From Prosthecobacter algae (GTDB lineage Bacteria; Verrucomicrobiota; Verrucomicrobiia; Verrucomicrobiales; Verrucomicrobiaceae), in contig NZ_BAABIA010000004.1 in assembly GCF_039542385.1 (NCBI RefSeq), forward strand, positions 248,001 through 312,000: 64,000 nucleotides of DNA, given 5' to 3'. Shown in pieces: positions 23,524-32,023 of this stretch. The translations under genes were made by a program, and so were the position numbers. The notes beneath the pieces were generated by a model. It was not told the DNA's origin. It worked only from the letters and a program-made list of their open reading frames with translations, and did no database searches. Numbering within the stretch: position 1 is the stretch's first letter; each line of letters starts with the position of its first letter.

Positions 23524-24168
23524 TTACTTTTTGGGTCGTGTTTGAAAGGTGGGTAACCGCACTTTCCACTTCATGGCGGCCAGGCGCAGGAGCAAAATGA
23601 CCGACATGGCTGCGTAGCGATGGCTTTCCGAAGGCGGGAAATAGCTCTCCAACAGTACAAAGACCGTGGCTCCAATGCCCACGGCGGTGGCATATAGCTC
23701 CACCTCGGCCCGAAGCACCCACGGGATCTCACTGCGTAAAACGTCCCGCAGGATGCCGCCGGCCACGCCGGTGACGATGCCGAGCAAGACGGCGATCACT
23801 CCAGGGGAGCCTAACAGTAGGGCTTTCTCCGTTCCCACAATGCCAAACAGGGCCAGGCCAAAGGCATCGGCCAGGGTCAAGGCACGGCTGGGGATCTCAA
23901 TGAAACGGGCCAGCACAAAGGTGCCCACCGCAGCCACCAGCGACCAAGTGATGTGATCTGGGGCCTGGATCCAGAAGACGGGGCGCACCCCCAGGCAAAG
24001 ATCGCGGATGGTACCACCGCCCACGGCCGTGACGAGGGCCAGCACCACGGCCCCGAAAAGGTCCATGCGCTTGCCTTCGGCAGCTAGGACGCCTGAAACG
24101 GCACAGACAGCGCAGGCGGAATACTCGATCCAGGGTGGCATCGGCGCATTCTGAATGGTTTTGGACAA
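23524..24168 (-). CDS. UPF0126 / TRIC-type membrane protein (YadS-like)
   Basis: The 214-residue product is an integral membrane protein with about seven hydrophobic segments arranged as two similar halves. Each half contains the family motif: GGGTIRDLCLG in the first and GGILRDVL in the second. Related proteins form trimeric cation channels; proposed substrates for bacterial relatives include potassium and small metabolites such as glycine. It converges on the GYF_2-like gene (11 bases between stops) and is divergent from nuoH. Confidence 0.88.
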   Translation of the reverse strand: MSKTIQNAPMPPWIEYSACAVCAVSGVLAAEGKRMDLFGAVVLALVTAVGGGTIRDLCLGVRPVFWIQAPDHITWSLVAAVGTFVLARFIEIPSRALTLADAFGLALFGIVGTEKALLLGSPGVIAVLLGIVTGVAGGILRDVLRSEIPWVLRAEVELYATAVGIGATVFVLLESYFPPSESHRYAAMSVILLLRLAAMKWKVRLPTFQTRPKK

Positions 24169-24311: not shown

Positions 24312-24329
24312 TTGTGAAATTTTTCACAA
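24312..24329. promoter_or_regulatory. Rex-type operator upstream of nuoH
   Basis: The 18-base sequence TTGTGAAATTTTTCACAA is an exact match to the Rex redox-repressor consensus TTGTGAA-N4-TTCACAA. It lies 48 bases upstream of the nuoH start and just upstream of a plausible promoter. Rex releases DNA when NADH is high, so it would link complex I synthesis to the NADH/NAD+ ratio. No rex gene is in the window, so the regulator itself is inferred. Confidence 0.7.
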
Positions 24330-24336
24330 ATTCGGG

Positions 24337-24364
24337 TTGCCCGTCGTAAAGCCTTCCTGATAAT
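24337..24364 (+). promoter_or_regulatory. Putative promoter of nuoHIJKLMN
   Basis: TTGCCC (24337-24342) and GATAAT (24359-24364) are separated by 16 bases, a good sigma-70-like arrangement. Transcription from it would begin only about 6 bases before the nuoH ATG, so either the messenger is almost leaderless or another start further upstream is used. No Shine-Dalgarno sequence precedes nuoH. Confidence 0.5.
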
Positions 24365-24376
24365 GCACACGCCCCC

Positions 24377-25645
24377 ATGGCAGCACTTCTCGCCAGCTTC
24401 GACTTTGCCTTCCTCATCACTTCGGTGGTGAAGATCGTTTTCCTGACCTTTTTGGTCATCTTGCCCATGGTCGCTTACTCCGTGTATGCGGAGAGGCGAT
24501 TTTCGGCCATCATCCAGGACCGTGTCGGCCCGAACCGAACCGGGATTCCCCTGACTTTGTTTGGTTTCAAGAAAGACATCCAGATCTTCGGCATCGGCGG
24601 TCTGGTGCAGCCCATGGCAGATGGCCTGAAGTTCCTTCTGAAGGAAGATTTTACTCCCAAGTCGGTCAATACCTTCTATTACTGGCTCGCCCCGGCGCTG
24701 ACGATGGTCCCTGCGCTGATGACCTGCGCCGTGCTTCCCTTTGGCAGCGAACTGGACCTTTCCTTCCTCAATCCCCTGATTGAAAAGCTGGGTGGCACAG
24801 GATTCACCGCCCCGGTGAAATCCGTGATTGCCGACCTCAATGTCGGTCCTCTGTTCACCTTCGCCATCGCTTCACTGGGCGTTTACGGCATCGTTTTGGC
24901 TGGTTGGTCGTCCAATTCGAAGTATCCTTTCCTCGGTGGGGTGCGCGCCTCGGCGCAGATGATCTCCTATGAGCTGTCTCTGGGCCTCTCCATCATTCCG
25001 GTGCTGATGGTTTTCGGTGAGCTGAACCTTTCTAAGATGTCCGCTTTCCAGGATGCCAACGGCTGGCTGCTGCTGCCTTTCTGGGGCGAAGGGCTGACGC
25101 TCGAGCGCTGGGTGCTGCTGGTGCCGATGGTGATTTCTTTCTGCATCTTTACGGTGGCGATGTTCGCCGAGACCAACCGTCTACCTTTTGACCTTGCCGA
25201 GTGTGAAACGGAACTCGTGGCCGGTTACCACACTGAATACAGCTCCATGAAGTTCGCCCTGTTCTTCCTGGGTGAATATGCGGCCATGATCATTGGTTCG
25301 GGTTTGGCGGTGACGCTTTTCCTGGGCGGATGGAGCATTCCTTTCTGGCCTTTCTTTGAATACATCGGGCAGAAGATCGGGATGGACACGGTTTTTGGCT
25401 GGTTTGGCAGCAGCTTCCAGCTTCATTACGCCGCTGGTTCCACCCCCATCTGGCTGGGCCTTCTGCACATCGCCACCTTCTTCCTGAAGGTCATCGTCTT
25501 CATCCTTTTCTTCATCCTCATTCGCTGGTCGCTACCGCGTTTCCGTTTTGACCAGCTCATGAAGTTGGGCTGGCTGTTCATGTTCGAACTGGCCCTGGCC
25601 AATGTCATCCTGACTGCCGTGATCATGGCTTGCTTTGTGAAGTAA
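24377..25645 (+). CDS. nuoH: NADH-quinone oxidoreductase subunit H (NuoH)
   Basis: NuoH is the complex I membrane subunit that joins the peripheral arm and forms much of the quinone cavity. The 422-residue product has about eight transmembrane helices, and MVAYSVYAERRFSAIIQDRVGPNRTG carries the strongly conserved AERR-x(7)-RxGPNRxG region near residues 38-55. A second conserved loop, AETNRLPFDLAECETELVAGYHTEYS, lies at about 272-297. It is longer than E. coli NuoH (about 325) owing to an insert between the first two helices and to an extended centre. It is the first gene of a seven-gene operon and directly follows a Rex-type box. Confidence 0.97.
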   Translation: MAALLASFDFAFLITSVVKIVFLTFLVILPMVAYSVYAERRFSAIIQDRVGPNRTGIPLTLFGFKKDIQIFGIGGLVQPMADGLKFLLKEDFTPKSVNTFYYWLAPALTMVPALMTCAVLPFGSELDLSFLNPLIEKLGGTGFTAPVKSVIADLNVGPLFTFAIASLGVYGIVLAGWSSNSKYPFLGGVRASAQMISYELSLGLSIIPVLMVFGELNLSKMSAFQDANGWLLLPFWGEGLTLERWVLLVPMVISFCIFTVAMFAETNRLPFDLAECETELVAGYHTEYSSMKFALFFLGEYAAMIIGSGLAVTLFLGGWSIPFWPFFEYIGQKIGMDTVFGWFGSSFQLHYAAGSTPIWLGLLHIATFFLKVIVFILFFILIRWSLPRFRFDQLMKLGWLFMFELALANVILTAVIMACFVK

Positions 25646-25657
25646 TTCTCCCCTCCG

Positions 25658-26203
25658 ATGGCAACAATTATCGTCCAACGCCCCAAGCTCTCCTGGCATG
25701 AGAGGTGGTTCATTTCCACGCTCGTTAAGGGTCTGAAAATCACGCTGGGACACGCCCTCAAAACCTTCCGCGAAATCGTCGGCGGCAAGGAGAAGGTGAC
25801 CATGGAATATCCCGAGCAGAAGTGGGATGCCAGCCTGCCTTCTTACTACCGTGGTGCGCCTGCCCTGGTGACTGATGAGCAGGATCGCGAGCGTTGTGTG
25901 AGCTGTCAGCTCTGCGAGTTCATCTGCCCGCCCAAGGCCATCCGCATCACGCCAGGGGAAATTCCGAGCGATGATCCGTGGGCAAAGGTGGAGAAGCGCC
26001 CGAAGGAATTCGATATTGACATGACCCGCTGCATCTATTGCGGCATGTGCGAAGAAGTCTGCCCCGAGCAGGCCATCTACCTCCGCAAAGATTACGCCAT
26101 CACGGGCGAGTCACGCGCTGAGTTGGTGCACGATAAAAAGAAGCTCTATGAGATCGGCGGCAAGCGCATCGGGCTGGTCAACAAGTGGAATGAACTGAAG
26201 TAG
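25658..26203 (+). CDS. nuoI: NADH-quinone oxidoreductase subunit I (NuoI), 2x[4Fe-4S]
   Basis: NuoI carries clusters N6a and N6b, which pass electrons to N2 and quinone. The 181-residue protein shows two complete ferredoxin motifs: Cys80, Cys83, Cys86, Cys90 (CVSCQLCEFICP) and Cys125, Cys128, Cys131, Cys135 (CIYCGMCEEVCP). The amphipathic N-terminus (WFISTLVKGLKITLGHALK) anchors it at the membrane. It lies 12 bases after nuoH and 4 before nuoJ. Confidence 0.97.
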   Translation: MATIIVQRPKLSWHERWFISTLVKGLKITLGHALKTFREIVGGKEKVTMEYPEQKWDASLPSYYRGAPALVTDEQDRERCVSCQLCEFICPPKAIRITPGEIPSDDPWAKVEKRPKEFDIDMTRCIYCGMCEEVCPEQAIYLRKDYAITGESRAELVHDKKKLYEIGGKRIGLVNKWNELK

Positions 26204-26207
26204 AGCC

Positions 26208-26783
26208 ATGCCGTCCATTTTCTTCTATCTCTTCAGCGCCATGACCTTGGGCTTCGGCCTATTGGTGGTGACTGCGCGGAATCCGGTCACCAGCGCCCTG
26301 TCTTTGGCTGCCAGCTTTGTCGGCCTGGCCGCCCTTTTCCTGGGGCTGGACGCCTACTTCATCGGCACGATCCAGATCCTGGTTTATGCAGGTGCCGTGA
26401 TGGTGCTGTTCCTTTTCATCATCATGCTTTTGGACATCAAGGCTGAGGAAGGCAAGAAGCCGAATCTGCCTGCGGTCATCGGCGGCATCACACTGGCGGT
26501 GATTTTGGCCCTTCAGATCACCACGGTCTGCAGTAGCTTTAACAACGGAGCAGTCAAAATTAAGGATGCACCTCTGGCCCTTCAGCAGGCGGGTGAAACG
26601 GCTAAGCTGCCGACTATTGCCAACGATCTCAAGGCTGGTGTGCTTCCGGATACGAAGCTCATGGGTCTGACGCTTTTCCAGAAATACGGCTTTCACCTCC
26701 AGGTGGTCGGACTGCTGCTCCTCGTGGGCACAGTCGGCGTGGTGGTGCTGAGCAAGCGTGAGAAAGGAGTCAAGGACGCCTGA
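26208..26783 (+). CDS. nuoJ: NADH-quinone oxidoreductase subunit J (NuoJ)
   Basis: The 191-residue membrane protein has five hydrophobic segments. The segment GTIQILVYAGAVMVLFLFIIMLLD is the diagnostic third helix of NuoJ/ND6, where the pi-bulge forms. A soluble insert of about 50 residues precedes the last helix. Its stop codon overlaps the nuoK start by one base (TGATG). Confidence 0.96.
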   Translation: MPSIFFYLFSAMTLGFGLLVVTARNPVTSALSLAASFVGLAALFLGLDAYFIGTIQILVYAGAVMVLFLFIIMLLDIKAEEGKKPNLPAVIGGITLAVILALQITTVCSSFNNGAVKIKDAPLALQQAGETAKLPTIANDLKAGVLPDTKLMGLTLFQKYGFHLQVVGLLLLVGTVGVVVLSKREKGVKDA

Positions 26784-27100
26784 TGGTCACACTCAATCAT
26801 TACCTTATCGTCAGCGGCATGCTATTCGCCCTCGGTCTTGCCGGGGTCATCGCACGGCGCAATATCATCATCATCTACATGTGCCTGGAGATGATGCTGA
26901 GCGCTGCCAACTTGACGCTCGTGGCCTTTTCCCGCTTTCGGGTGACGGATGGCCTACCTGATTACGCCGCCCAGTCGCTGGTATTCTTCACCATTACGGT
27001 GGCCGCTGCCGAAGTGGCCGTCGGTCTTGCCATCATCGTTGCTCTCTACCGTGCGAAGCAGAGCGTCGAAACTGAATCCGTCACCAAGCTGCAAGGCTAA
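26783..27100 (+). CDS. nuoK: NADH-quinone oxidoreductase subunit K (NuoK)
   Basis: The 105-residue protein has three transmembrane helices. The conserved glutamates of the proton path are visible in NIIIIYMCLEMMLSAANL and in TVAAAEVAVGLAII. Length and gene order agree with NuoK. It overlaps nuoJ by one base, and nuoL starts 24 bases downstream. Confidence 0.97.
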   Translation: MVTLNHYLIVSGMLFALGLAGVIARRNIIIIYMCLEMMLSAANLTLVAFSRFRVTDGLPDYAAQSLVFFTITVAAAEVAVGLAIIVALYRAKQSVETESVTKLQG

Positions 27101-27124: not shown

Positions 27125-29023
27125 ATGCCCGCCCAGGACGCCGCCCCCACACTCCCTTCATTGCTGCTGCTGCTGCCGTTTTTTACGGCACTGACCATCT
27201 TGCTTGGACACAAACTGCTGAAAAACGTCAGCGTGTTCCTTTCCGTGGCCTCCGCCACGATCTGCTTTGTGATCAGCGTGCTGCTGCTGCATTCCCAGGA
27301 TTCCAATCCAGTCCTGCTGCCGTTCATCAGCGTTGGCAATTTCAAGATCGCGATTGATGCCCTGATTGATCAGCAAAGCCGTGGCATGATGCTCATCGTC
27401 ACCTCCATCGGTCTGCTGGTGCATGTTTTCTCCCTGGGCTACATGAAGGAAGATGCGGGCAAGGTTCGCTTCTTCGGGGCGCTGTCCTTGTTCATGTTTT
27501 CGATGACGGGCATCGTGCTCGCCGGAAACTTGGTGATGATGTTCATCTTCTGGGAACTGGTCGGTCTCAGTTCCTACCTGCTGATTGGCCATTGGTTTGA
27601 GAAAGCCTCTGCGGCGGATGCCTCCAAGAAAGCCTTCCTCACCAATCGTATCGGCGACTTTGGCTTCATGATCGGCATTCTGATGTTGTTCGCGGCCAAT
27701 CATGGCAATGTGGATTTTGTGGGTGCAGATGGTCTCCGCGAGAGTTTCGCCAGTGGCACGCTGCATCACCTCGCCGCCTCCCAGCCTGCGTTCATGATGG
27801 CGGCCGCTCTCTGCCTGTTCATGGGTGCTGTAGGCAAGTCTGCCCAGGTGCCTCTGCATGTCTGGCTGCCGGATGCCATGGAAGGCCCGACTCCGGTTTC
27901 GGCCCTCATTCACGCGGCTACGATGGTGGCCGCCGGCGTGTTTATGCTAGTGCGTTGCGCCTTTGTGATCGAGGCGTCTCCTGATGCCGCCCAGGTCATC
28001 GCCTGGATCGGTGGCATCACTGCTATTTTTGCCGCACTGATGGCCACTCAGCAGAATGACATCAAGCGCGTGCTCGCTTACTCCACCCTGTCCCAGCTTG
28101 GTTACATGGTTATGGCTGTCGGTCTTCTTGCCATGCAGGTGGGCGGGCATCATCACGAGGCAGGCCCTGGCCACCCGGCGATGTTCCACCTTTACACGCA
28201 TGCTTTCTTCAAGGCCATGTTGTTCCTGGGTTCGGGCGCCATCATCTATGCCTGCCACCATGAGCAGGACATGTGGAAGATGGGCGGCCTGATGAAGCAC
28301 ATGCCGGTCACCTTTGTGACTTTCGCCATCGGCACAGCCTCGCTCATGGGGATCCCTTATATCACCAGCGGTTTCTGGAGCAAAGAAGCCATTCTCGGCG
28401 TCGCTTTTGAAGTGGAAGGAGGTCGACCTCTGTTTTGGATCGGTGTTGTTACCGCCATGCTGACGGCCTTCTACATGACCCGTCTATTTGTTGTGGCCTT
28501 CTTTGGCAAACCTCGTACAGACTCTGCACACCATGCCGTCGAGGCCCCGATCATCATGGTCTTGCCTCTGATCATTCTCGCTTTGCTCACCCTTGGTTCA
28601 GTGCCACTTGCCGGGGTCTTTGAAGCCATGAAGCCTACCCATGCCGAAGATCATCCGACCGTGGTCATTGCTTCCATTGTGGCTCTTGCCATCGGATTGT
28701 TCGGTGGTTTGTTCCTTTACAAGGGCAAGGACAAAGACCCGCTGAACATCAAGCTGTTCGCCAACAAGTTTTATGTGGACGAGGTCTATGCGGTCATCGT
28801 CAAAGTGTTTCAGGATGCGGTGGCGTGGATCGTGGCGGGGCTTGAGCGTCTGATTGTGGACGGCATCATGGCTCGCCTGCCAGCTTACCTCGCCGCGCGT
28901 GTCGGTTCTGCCGCGCGGATTCTTCAGGGTGGTCACTTGCAGGGTTATACCTTCCTGCTGGGTCTCGGCGTCCTGCTTGTTGTTTATGTCGTCGTGTTTG
29001 TCCTGCCCTCTGTGGGCCATTGA
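27125..29023 (+). CDS. nuoL: NADH-quinone oxidoreductase subunit L (NuoL)
   Basis: NuoL is the distal antiporter-like proton pump of complex I, with a long lateral helix. The 632-residue product shows VMMFIFWELVGLSSYLLIG with the conserved Glu, then KSAQVPLHVWLPDAMEGPTPVSALIH and KRVLAYSTLSQLGYM. These are the hallmarks of the Mrp-like antiporter fold. The C-terminal part (about 520-632) holds the lateral helix and a final transmembrane anchor. Length is normal for NuoL. Confidence 0.97.
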   Translation: MPAQDAAPTLPSLLLLLPFFTALTILLGHKLLKNVSVFLSVASATICFVISVLLLHSQDSNPVLLPFISVGNFKIAIDALIDQQSRGMMLIVTSIGLLVHVFSLGYMKEDAGKVRFFGALSLFMFSMTGIVLAGNLVMMFIFWELVGLSSYLLIGHWFEKASAADASKKAFLTNRIGDFGFMIGILMLFAANHGNVDFVGADGLRESFASGTLHHLAASQPAFMMAAALCLFMGAVGKSAQVPLHVWLPDAMEGPTPVSALIHAATMVAAGVFMLVRCAFVIEASPDAAQVIAWIGGITAIFAALMATQQNDIKRVLAYSTLSQLGYMVMAVGLLAMQVGGHHHEAGPGHPAMFHLYTHAFFKAMLFLGSGAIIYACHHEQDMWKMGGLMKHMPVTFVTFAIGTASLMGIPYITSGFWSKEAILGVAFEVEGGRPLFWIGVVTAMLTAFYMTRLFVVAFFGKPRTDSAHHAVEAPIIMVLPLIILALLTLGSVPLAGVFEAMKPTHAEDHPTVVIASIVALAIGLFGGLFLYKGKDKDPLNIKLFANKFYVDEVYAVIVKVFQDAVAWIVAGLERLIVDGIMARLPAYLAARVGSAARILQGGHLQGYTFLLGLGVLLVVYVVVFVLPSVGH

Positions 29024-29035
29024 TGGAGGAATGGA

Positions 29036-30532
29036 ATGAGCGTTCTCGAAATCGTCATCCTGCTACCAATTGTCGCCGCCCTAGCCATCTGGCTCGGGGC
29101 ACCGGCCCGTGCCACCTCGGTGGGCTCGGCCATCCTTAACCTGCTCATTGTCCTGGGACTCCTTTTCCAGTTCAAGTCGGCCTCGGCGGGAGGTGCGGGC
29201 ATGGCCTTCGAAAGCGCCCGTGTGGTTTTGGACAATCCGGCCATCTCCTTCGGAGTGGGCGCGGACGGTGTTTCTCTGATTCTTGCCTTGCTGACCGTGC
29301 TCGTCACGTTTGCGGCTGTCTGGCAGATTGCTTCGGACAAGCCCGCCATTTATCACATTGCCTCTCTGCTCATTGCAGGAGGTGGTCTGGGGGCTTTCCT
29401 TTCCACGGATGTCTTTTTTATCTACGCCTTTCATGAACTGGCGCTGATCCCGACCTTCCTCATGATTGGCCTTTATGGCCATGGTGAAGACTCCCATCGC
29501 AAAGCGGTGGCCTGGAAGACAACGATCTATCTTGGAGCTGGCAGCCTTGTCCTTCTGGCTGGCCTTGCCTGGCTGGTGCTGGAATACAGCGGCGGTCAGA
29601 AACTGACGTTCGATCTGAATGCGCTTCGTGCTCAGGCGGCCTCGACGCCCTTGCCTGTGGAAAAGCAGGGTCTCATCTTCTTCGTGCTGCTTCTGGGTTT
29701 TGGCACGCTGGTCAGCCTTTTCCCTCTGCATAGCTGGGCGGCACCCGCCTATGCCACTGCTCCAACACCTGTTGCCATGCTGCATGCGGGTGTGCTCAAA
29801 AAGTTTGGCCTGTATGGTCTGATCCGCATTGCACTGCCGCTGTTGCCGCAAGGTGCGCAGGTGGAGTGGGTGCAGCAGGCGTTGCTTTTCATGCTGCTGG
29901 GTAACATTCTGGTCATTGGTTTTGTCACCATCGCCCAGCGTTCCTTGGACCAGGTGCTGGGCAATTCTTCGGTGATGCACATGGGTTACATCTTCCTCGG
30001 CATCGCTGCGGGGACGGAGATCGCCCTGCAAGGTGCCGTGCTGCTCATGTTTGCTCACGGCATCTCGATTGCTCTGCTGTTTGCTCTCGCAGGCCGTATG
30101 CGGAATCAATTGGGCACGCTGGAGCTTTCCAAGCTGGGCGGGCTTGCTTCCCACGCACCGGTCTTCACGCTGTTGTTTGCCTTTGGGGCCTTTGCTTCTT
30201 TGGGGCTTCCGGGTCTGGCGAACTTCGCCGGTGAAGTGATGGTGTTCCTGGGTGCTTACGGCAGCAATGGTGGCCATGCTATTGGGCCCATGCAGTGGAC
30301 GGTCATCCTGGCTCTGTGGGGCGTGGTGATGTCGGCCGTTTACATGTTGCGTGCCTTCCGCGATATTTTCCAAGGTTCTGCCAATGCGGGCCTGTTCATG
30401 AATGACCCGGCCTTCAGCCAGCGCATTCCTTTGATTCTGCTCGCCGCAGCCCTGTTGATTGTCGGTTGCTGCCCCTGGCTTCTGCTGGACCTGCTGAAGT
30501 CGCTGTCTGCGGCCAAGGTGGCTGTGATGTAG
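29036..30532 (+). CDS. nuoM: NADH-quinone oxidoreductase subunit M (NuoM)
   Basis: The 498-residue antiporter-like subunit carries FIYAFHELALIPTFLMIG with the key Glu and HSWAAPAYATAPTPVAMLHAG (in place of the common HTWLPDAH version), followed by SLDQVLGNSSVMHMGYIFLG. It has about 14 transmembrane helices. A purine-rich TGGAGGAATGG precedes the ATG, one of the few clear ribosome-binding sites in this operon. The replacement of the canonical W-L-P-D-A-H loop by W-A-A-P-A-Y is a departure worth noting. Confidence 0.96.
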   Translation: MSVLEIVILLPIVAALAIWLGAPARATSVGSAILNLLIVLGLLFQFKSASAGGAGMAFESARVVLDNPAISFGVGADGVSLILALLTVLVTFAAVWQIASDKPAIYHIASLLIAGGGLGAFLSTDVFFIYAFHELALIPTFLMIGLYGHGEDSHRKAVAWKTTIYLGAGSLVLLAGLAWLVLEYSGGQKLTFDLNALRAQAASTPLPVEKQGLIFFVLLLGFGTLVSLFPLHSWAAPAYATAPTPVAMLHAGVLKKFGLYGLIRIALPLLPQGAQVEWVQQALLFMLLGNILVIGFVTIAQRSLDQVLGNSSVMHMGYIFLGIAAGTEIALQGAVLLMFAHGISIALLFALAGRMRNQLGTLELSKLGGLASHAPVFTLLFAFGAFASLGLPGLANFAGEVMVFLGAYGSNGGHAIGPMQWTVILALWGVVMSAVYMLRAFRDIFQGSANAGLFMNDPAFSQRIPLILLAAALLIVGCCPWLLLDLLKSLSAAKVAVM

Positions 30533-30553: not shown

Positions 30554-32023
30554 ATGTCTGTTTTCTCCGTCGAAATCTTCCTGGTTGTTTTTGGTCTGGC
30601 GCTGCTGTGCCTTGAGGCCCTTGTCCCCACGCTTACTCGTCGCACGCTGGCGGGCATCAGCATTGGCGGCGTGGCCTTGGCCTTTGTGCTGTTTCTGTTT
30701 GCTTCGAAATCTGGGGCAGATCTGCCCGCCTTTGTGCAGCCTTATCATCAGCTCGATACGCTGGCGGTCTTTTATAAAGGCTTTGCGCTGGTCATCACCT
30801 TGCTGGTGCTTTGGCTGACGGTGGAAAGCTCGGCCTACCTCACGAAGTTCACCCCTGGTGGCAACTTCAGTGAACTCTTCAGCCTGCCCATCCTGGTGTG
30901 TGTCGGCATGATGTGGATGGCTTCGGCCAAGGACCTGATCACGGTCTTTGTGTCGCTGGAACTGGTGACGGTGTCTTTCTACGTGCTGGTGGCCTTTGCC
31001 CGCAAAAGCAATCTGGCGCTGGAGGCCGGTGTGAAGTACCTCATTCTGGGGGCACTCAGCACGGGTGTTCTCGTTTATGGCATTGCCTGGGTGTATGGTG
31101 CCACGGGAGCTCTGAGTTTCGAGGGTATCGGGACGGCACTGGCTCTGCCTGAAACTTCCCGGACTGCCGCTCTTCTGGGGGCAGCCTTTCTGCTTTCCGG
31201 TCTGGGGTTCAAGGTCGCTGCCGCGCCCTTCCAGATGTGGGTGCCCGATGTTTATCAGGGAGCTCCGATTCCGGTGACGGTCTTTCTTTCGGTCGGCTCA
31301 AAAGCCGCTGGTTTTGTGGTGCTGACTCGCACGGTGGAATCATTTATGGCGACAGGCTCGGTGATTGCCGCTGAGGTTCAGGGCTTGCTCATTGTGGGTG
31401 GTGCGCTGACGATTCTCCTGGGCAGCCTGCCTGCCATGTTCCAGACGAGCATCAAGCGCCTTCTGGCCTATTCCAGCATCAGCCATGCAGGCTATCTGCT
31501 CCTGGCACTGGGTGCAGGTTCGGCCCGGTTTGATCTCAGCTCCGGCGGGGTGGTGGCCTTTTATCTGGCAACGTACCTGCCGATGACGGTTCTGAGTTTC
31601 CTGGTGCTGGCCATTCTCCGTGCCAATGGCGGCGGTGAAGATATCCAGGATTTCCGGGGATTGGCCCGCCGCAGTCCGGTGCTGGCTTTGGCGATGACCT
31701 TGTCTCTGGCATCCCTTGCAGGTCTTCCTCTCACGGCCGGTTTCATGGGCAAGCTTTTCGTGTTCTTCGGCCTTGTGGATCAGGCCGCCTGGGGTGCTTT
31801 GGCCTGCGCGGTGATCGGTGCTGCTGTGGGTTTCTATTATTACTTCCGTGCCATCCTGGTCATGTATGCCACGGATGCGCAGACAGCCGAGCCTTTGAAG
31901 GTTGCAACGGGAACGAAAGCCGGTGCCATTGTTTTGGCGGTGGTGATCGTCGTGATCGGTGTCTATCCGAAGCCTTTGCAGCAGTTGCTGGCCCCCGTTC
32001 CTGTCACGGTGGTTGCTCATTGA
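30554..32023 (+). CDS. nuoN: NADH-quinone oxidoreductase subunit N (NuoN)
   Basis: The 489-residue antiporter-like subunit includes [20 protein letters not shown] with the conserved Glu, [20 protein letters not shown] and [20 protein letters not shown], all diagnostic of NuoN/ND2. It is the last gene of the nuoH-N operon. A short frame for the next gene overlaps its end, but that gene's real start (with signal peptide) lies 69 bases downstream, so no true overlap exists. Confidence 0.97.

Follow-up and report, generated by a model that had tools for sequence, protein, structure and literature searches.

A Rex-type operator in front of nuoH

An 18-bp palindrome stands just ahead of nuoH in the genome of Prosthecobacter algae, a member of the Verrucomicrobiaceae, and it raises the question of which regulator reads such a site and how far its control extends. 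In a preliminary description of the window (the whole stretch of 64 kb that was analysed), this palindrome had been taken for a perfect Rex-type operator in front of the complex I operon. Its sequence, TTGTGAAATTTTTCACAA, agrees with TTGTGAAN4TTCACAA at all 14 fixed positions, with 0 mismatches as had been claimed, and the site does lie just upstream of a promoter-like sequence and nuoH. The features of the locus are as follows.

24312..24329, no strand assigned: predicted Rex operator of the N4 type, TTGTGAAATTTTTCACAA (pattern match and family-wide conservation)
24337..24342, + strand: -35-like element TTGCCC, 7 nt downstream of the operator
24359..24364, + strand: -10-like element GATAAT, spacer of 16 from TTGCCC
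24377..25645, + strand: nuoH, ATG at 24377 (Pfam NADHdh, E 1.1e-105)
25658..26203, + strand: nuoI, named by eye from the translation
26208..26783, + strand: nuoJ, named by eye
26783..27100, + strand: nuoK, named by eye
27125..29023, + strand: nuoL, named by eye
29036..30532, + strand: nuoM, named by eye
30554..32023, + strand: nuoN, named by eye

The pair TTGCCC-16-GATAAT (24337-24364) agrees with 9 of 12 promoter positions and was the one such pair found between 24100 and 24500, where shuffled sequences gave a mean of 0.3. We infer a transcription start for nuoH near 24371, with the centre of the operator near -50. The term "complex I operon" stands in part: nuoHIJKLMN do follow the site, but this is not the whole of complex I, as nuoB-C, nuoD-E, nuoF and nuoG are located at four other loci. 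Across the 64-kb window, three places match the Rex pattern with three mismatches or fewer against 2.15 expected, which is no excess, so that the strength of the site at 24312-24329 lies in its perfect match.

Two side observations concern the flanks of this promoter. The predicted start is only about 6 bases before the ATG (24359-24377), which suggests that the nuoH message is nearly leaderless. The divergent neighbour upstream (23524-24168, - strand) encodes, by eye, a TRIC/UPF0126-like membrane protein.

Nine predicted operators and one Rex protein in the P. algae genome

In the whole P. algae genome (6.12 Mb), the Rex pattern was found at nine perfect places, at none with one mismatch and at 12 with two, while a reversed control pattern gave 10 places at two mismatches or fewer, none of them perfect. 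Read toward the gene, seven of the nine sites have the identical 18 letters. Perfect sites precede nuoB-C, nuoD-E, nuoF, nuoG, nuoH-N and the genes from atpB to atpC, and the remaining ones precede an operon of the actA-B-C-D type, a second operon of the complex III/oxidase type, and rpsL-rpsG-fusA; Pfam was run on the lead genes and on some of the others downstream. The complex I genes are thus split into five pieces or more, and every piece has its own operator; NuoA was not located in the genome. The operon read as actA-B-C-D encodes cytochrome c7, iron-sulfur/molybdopterin-like and NrfD domains, and from this set of domains we read it as an alternative complex III. The second operon starts with genes for a cytochrome c and for a membrane protein with no Pfam or NCBIfam match, which would be actE and actF by resemblance only, and it continues with cbb3-like oxidase genes (COX1, FixO) and with others that look aa3-like by eye. 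By Pfam and BLAST, then, the targets in P. algae are genes of NADH oxidation and respiration, plus rpsL. That the same 18-mer might stand upstream of other redox genes had been suggested beforehand, and the other nuo pieces, the ATP synthase genes and the act/oxidase operons bear this out.

A Rex homologue is encoded in the same genome. Its single gene product matches PF06971 at 64.1 bits in a profile search and the NCBIfam model of the Rex subfamily at 242 bits, where the cut-off is 126. Among solved sequences it matches eight, seven named Rex and one named "AT-rich DNA-binding protein", and it aligns to solved Rex over residues 5-204, nearly its full length, covering both the winged helix and the NAD-binding domain. 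PMC8836258 names 12 residues with which T. maritima Rex contacts DNA; 11 of them are identical in the P. algae protein, the exception being S52, which is A.

Conservation of site and regulator within the family

Perfect sites are present in all 68 of the Verrucomicrobiaceae genomes searched, 4-11 in each and 513 in all, against a single match in one genome for the control pattern. AT-rich 18-mers may arise randomly, and the palindrome at nuoH might have been such a product of chance, or a terminator-like inverted repeat. This explanation, to which we give a negligible probability, fails on the nine perfect copies in P. algae against 0 for the control, placed at respiratory or translation operons, as well as on the 68/68 family genomes with perfect sites, and a chance palindrome was rejected.

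Rex itself was found in 63 of the 68 family genomes; the five without it are 76-90% complete. In the nearest sister family, both Rex and perfect sites are absent from 14 of 14 genomes, two of which have one site with a mismatch. Within the order, therefore, the site and Rex occur together (both in 63/68, neither in 14/14). Inside the family, however, the two are common by descent, and this co-occurrence is close to one event. The operator letters are under what appears to be tight constraint: in six further family genomes there were only three sites with exactly one mismatch against 48 perfect ones, with one control match, and that near-misses are so scarce points to strong selection on the precise sequence.

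The same holds at nuoH. The palindrome is present upstream of nuoH in P. algae and in eight of the nine other family genomes inspected; in G180 there are six sites, none of them assigned to nuoH. In a set of 80 nuoH loci, a perfect site was found in five, all named Verrucomicrobiaceae or Prosthecobacter. Within 300 bases upstream of the other 75, no site with at most one mismatch was seen; five of the 80 loci have fewer than 300 bases there. At one locus, in a Prosthecobacter debontii MAG (L218), nuoH comes immediately after nuoG, and no site precedes it. Two outcomes had been named beforehand as speaking against a Rex operator, namely a genome with no Rex protein and a palindrome at nuoH with no conservation in relatives; when both were checked, Rex was found encoded and the palindrome conserved.

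Which protein reads the operator

We consider, with a probability of about 0.85, that Rex is the reader of a family-wide regulon marked by the 18-mer, a prediction built on motif, protein and gene content. Two other readers have to be weighed. The Crp consensus is TGTGA-N6-TCACA, and TTGTGAAATTTTTCACAA holds it in full, in perfect overlap with the Rex consensus, so that a protein of the Crp/Fnr family could be envisioned at the same letters. Candidates for such a protein are common, as Crp-type helix-turn-helix domains (PF13545) are matched in 99 of 115 genomes drawn from the phylum, 57 of them over the cut-off, and P. algae has two such matches, the best at 28.4 bits. The distribution of the sites does not follow them, however: the perfect site is absent from 107 of these 115 genomes in spite of the 99 with a match, and in the family genome G066, where 8 sites are present, PF13545 finds no match at E 0.001. 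Moreover, nine of the 11 places in P. algae with TGTGA-N6-TCACA are the full Rex motif, which implies that the inner AA/TT and the outer T/A belong to the motif, and the target genes resemble the Rex set. On motif and regulator counts the Crp reading was rejected as very improbable.

The other alternative is an unrelated regulator, specific to the family, that has come to read this site. It gains some ground from the fact that the case for Rex as the reader is built from sequence, and from the near-invariance of the site, which looks unusual for a Rex regulon when set against the degenerate sites shown for S. avermitilis in PMC5355995. Against it, the operator is an exact match to the generalized Rex consensus TTGTGAANNNNTTCACAA of Ravcheev et al. 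2012, as this is quoted in PMC5317091 (on Rex in Caldithrix). The Rex contact residues are conserved, and rex itself is preceded by an N4 site in G056 (exact) and in G020 (with one mismatch), which represent two further families of the phylum. We regard such a regulator as highly unlikely and keep Rex as the reader.

Targets across the family

For the reach of the regulon, 76 perfect sites were taken from nine other family genomes and compared by BLAST with the P. algae target genes, and 68 of them were matched to nuo, atp, act, oxidase or rpsL genes. Five of the remaining eight, in five genomes, precede a polyprenyl synthase gene (identified by eye, one checked with Pfam), for which a role in quinone synthesis is a guess. 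One (G173) precedes an H+-pyrophosphatase gene, one belongs to a duplicate of the nuoF promoter of G066 at a contig end, and one (G116) is ambiguous, lying between an nnrS-like gene, named by eye, and a gene for an RNA-binding protein. Where nuoE heads its own piece it has its own site (G116, G117, G125, G175), and so does nuoI in G116. Sites at the oxidase operon and at rpsL were found only in P. algae and G130 among the ten genomes. The earlier proposal of a verrucomicrobial Rex regulon that includes complex I is thereby supported as a prediction, and the predicted regulon is broader than had been proposed.

As a side observation, the near-identical copies of the nuoF promoter in G066 are at two contig ends (L106, L110) beside a tract of short repeats, and the site count of this genome is probably 7 rather than 8.

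The rpsL site behaves differently from the core. Matches to rpsL were obtained in 42 of 47 genomes of the genus, and in the 30 loci read the site is perfect in five:

L019 8001-8018; L184-L213: rpsL site, perfect in P. algae and four close relatives only

In two near relatives it has decayed to 2 and 3 mismatches, and the sequence upstream of the site is unlike between two genomes compared. As a lineage-specific site, rpsL was dropped as a core target; the site may be a recent gain or may be due to chance.

Two promoter layouts and the likely mode of control

The position of the operator relative to the promoter was read from 77 assigned sites in ten related genomes, nine from P. algae and 68 from the others. 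In the nuo/atp rows, TTGC stands 5-7 bases downstream of the operator in 62 of 63 (at 7 in 50 of them), the exception having TTGA, and the -10 match in these 62 rows is 3.87 of 6 against 2.26 in shuffles, the largest of which gave 2.55. In the act/oxidase rows, TTGC stands 36-38 bases upstream of the operator in 12 of 12 and in none downstream, which would make the operator begin at about the predicted transcription start. The split between the layouts is not absolute, as five of the 63 nuo/atp rows additionally have TTGC 36-39 bases upstream of the site. Family-wide, there are 404 matches to the site followed by TTGC at 5-7 bases, to be compared with 513 perfect sites and with 0 matches for the control.

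If Rex acts here as it does elsewhere in the Rex family, Rex free of NADH would bind the operators and hold the target genes low, and a build-up of NADH would release Rex and allow the respiratory chain to be made. The regulon under such control would comprise complex I in its separate pieces, the ATP synthase and an alternative-complex-III-like operon, and in Prosthecobacter an oxidase operon too. At the act/oxidase operons, the placement of the operator at about the predicted start in 12/12 rows fits a block of polymerase, in which Rex would serve as a road-block. At nuo/atp, where the site is upstream of the TTGC of the -35-like element (62/63), Rex would have to repress by excluding the C-terminal domain of the RNA polymerase alpha subunit or sigma.

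This second layout invites a different interpretation, in which the position of its site gives Rex a dual role: bound upstream of the -35 element it would activate nuo/atp, and bound at the start site it would repress the complex III and oxidase genes. Activators are often located upstream of the -35 element, the site is fixed in its position to the promoter in both classes (62/63 and 12/12), and the layout upstream of -35 accounts for 404 of the 513 family sites. The five of 63 nuo/atp rows with TTGC on the upstream side as well do not fit so neat a division, however, and by eye the two promoter classes are alike in their match to the consensus, such that the nuo class does not look activator-dependent. 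Opposite control of partners within one chain would also be harder to rationalise. We hold the dual role to be unlikely. Repression is favoured at both layouts because all the products serve one chain; repression everywhere is the likely mode, and at nuo/atp, taken separately, we consider repression by Rex fairly probable. The existence of two layouts allows the direct question of whether Rex can act from upstream of a -35 element.

A further side observation concerns the centre of the operator. Read toward the gene, its middle dinucleotide is TT in 47 of the 77 rows and AA in 17 of them, despite the symmetry expected of a dimer. No claim is made for this bias as the sign of an UP element, since the two promoter classes show it to a similar extent and the rows are not independent.

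Comparison with known Rex systems

The closest parallel is S. avermitilis, where, according to PMC5355995, Rex is a repressor released by NADH, with operators before nuoA1-N1, atpIBEFHAGDC and hppA; complex I and ATP synthase genes have sites in the Verrucomicrobiaceae as well, and an H+-pyrophosphatase gene has one in G173. That Rex controls complex I and ATP synthase was already known for Streptomyces. The arrangement is different, however. PMC5355995 describes a single nuo operon with degenerate sites between or over the -35 and -10 elements, Rex protecting -42 to -16 at nuoA1 and -50 to -22 at atpI, and it lists bd oxidase and heme genes among the targets, whereas in the Verrucomicrobiaceae complex I is split, each piece has a near-identical site, and the site is upstream of -35. 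Relative to what is described there, the Verrucomicrobiaceae also add the complex III-like operon, the oxidase operon of Prosthecobacter and, in five genomes, the polyprenyl synthase gene. Rex of B. subtilis and S. aureus uses the same operator, and the S. aureus consensus TTGTGAAWWWWTTCACAA fits seven of the nine P. algae sites; PMC5355995 lists bd oxidase, ndh, fermentation and nitrate genes as its targets, and no gene of these kinds was seen at the nine P. algae sites.

In the open-licence literature searched, no account of a verrucomicrobial Rex regulon was found. Verrucomicrobia reportedly lie outside the groups for which Ravcheev et al. 2012 described Rex regulons. The features that look new are the extension of the predicted regulon to complex III-like genes and, in Prosthecobacter, to oxidase genes, the near-invariant operators on dispersed pieces of complex I, the operator position near -50, and the shortened operator found at rex (see below). 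If the Rex reading is right, one NADH sensor sets much of the machinery of oxidative phosphorylation across a bacterial family, and its operator has stayed nearly letter-perfect while the complex I genes became scattered over the genome. A regulon so small and so well predicted would be a test case for Rex outside the Gram-positive bacteria.

A putative shortened operator at rex

In the family, rex has a palindrome of its own, GTGAA-N2-TTCAC, in which the core half-site of the N4 operators recurs with a spacer of 2 instead of 4, and in some genomes this is the full TTGTGAA-N2-TTCACAA; one example is TTGTGAAATTTCACAA.

L025 near 7766 (P. algae rex promoter); L055-L083 and L314-L333: N2 palindrome at rex

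With a tolerance of one changed base in the inner half-site, this form was found at rex in 46 of 49 distinct family genomes, the three without it being G136, G140 and G166. These comprise 29/29 loci parsed from a first set of 30 and 17/20 from a second, which includes G173, the genome of the thirtieth locus (L075); no N4 site was found in the family rex loci read. By eye, the palindrome mostly starts some 13-14 bases after TTGAC(A), a few loci having no clear TTGAC, and its A/T core is located at the expected -10 region of rex. In nine genomes of the second set the start codon is farther off and the distance between the palindrome and TTGAC is kept, again by eye. In 207 kb of P. algae sequence the N2 palindrome occurs only at rex, and the spacer-two core occurs three times in 1.12 Mb of other, partly overlapping loci, one of these being the copy at P. 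algae rex. From other families, 20 rex loci were fetched and 17 parsed, and the N2 form was present in none of them; at rex of G020 and G025 there is an N4-like site, with 1 and 2 mismatches.

The distance between half-sites is 11 bp in the N4 form and 9 bp in the N2 form, about 37 and 30 A at 3.3-3.4 A per bp. PMC8836258 gives the distance between the recognition helices of T. maritima Rex as 36.3 A in the DNA-bound form and 30.8 A in the NADH-bound form, and terms the latter spacing too close for the normal operator. The agreement of 11 bp with 36.3 A and of 9 bp with 30.8 A prompts the speculation that Rex reads two operator lengths according to its ligand state, such that NADH-bound Rex would leave the respiratory genes and bind at rex. 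If so, one regulator would give opposite responses selected by 2 bp of spacing. We regard this as improbable, and the change of 2 bp, which rotates the half-sites by some 70 degrees relative to each other, may exclude it. The shortened operator is in any case a separate puzzle, and one that is easy to test.

Sites outside the family

Among the 115 phylum genomes, more than one perfect site was found only in G000 and G066, both Verrucomicrobiaceae. Six others have one perfect site each, and a Rex match is present in four of these (G023, G049, G056, G083) and in neither of the other two (G040, G072). Counting sites with one mismatch or fewer outside the family, there were 41 against 15 for the control in 62 genomes with Rex and 17 against 13 in 51 genomes without (Fisher p = 0.15; G001 and G108, whose Rex matches are below the cut-off, were counted as without), so the association of site and Rex in the wider phylum is a weak trend. 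Eight of the 10 sites found in G015, G023, G056 and G093 were fetched for inspection, and four of these eight are at genes that match neither the P. algae targets nor rex. Single cases speak for Rex all the same: besides the N4 sites at rex in G056 and G020, in G015, G023 and G093, from a distant family, a site with one mismatch stands upstream of an atpB-like gene (L160, L163, L183).
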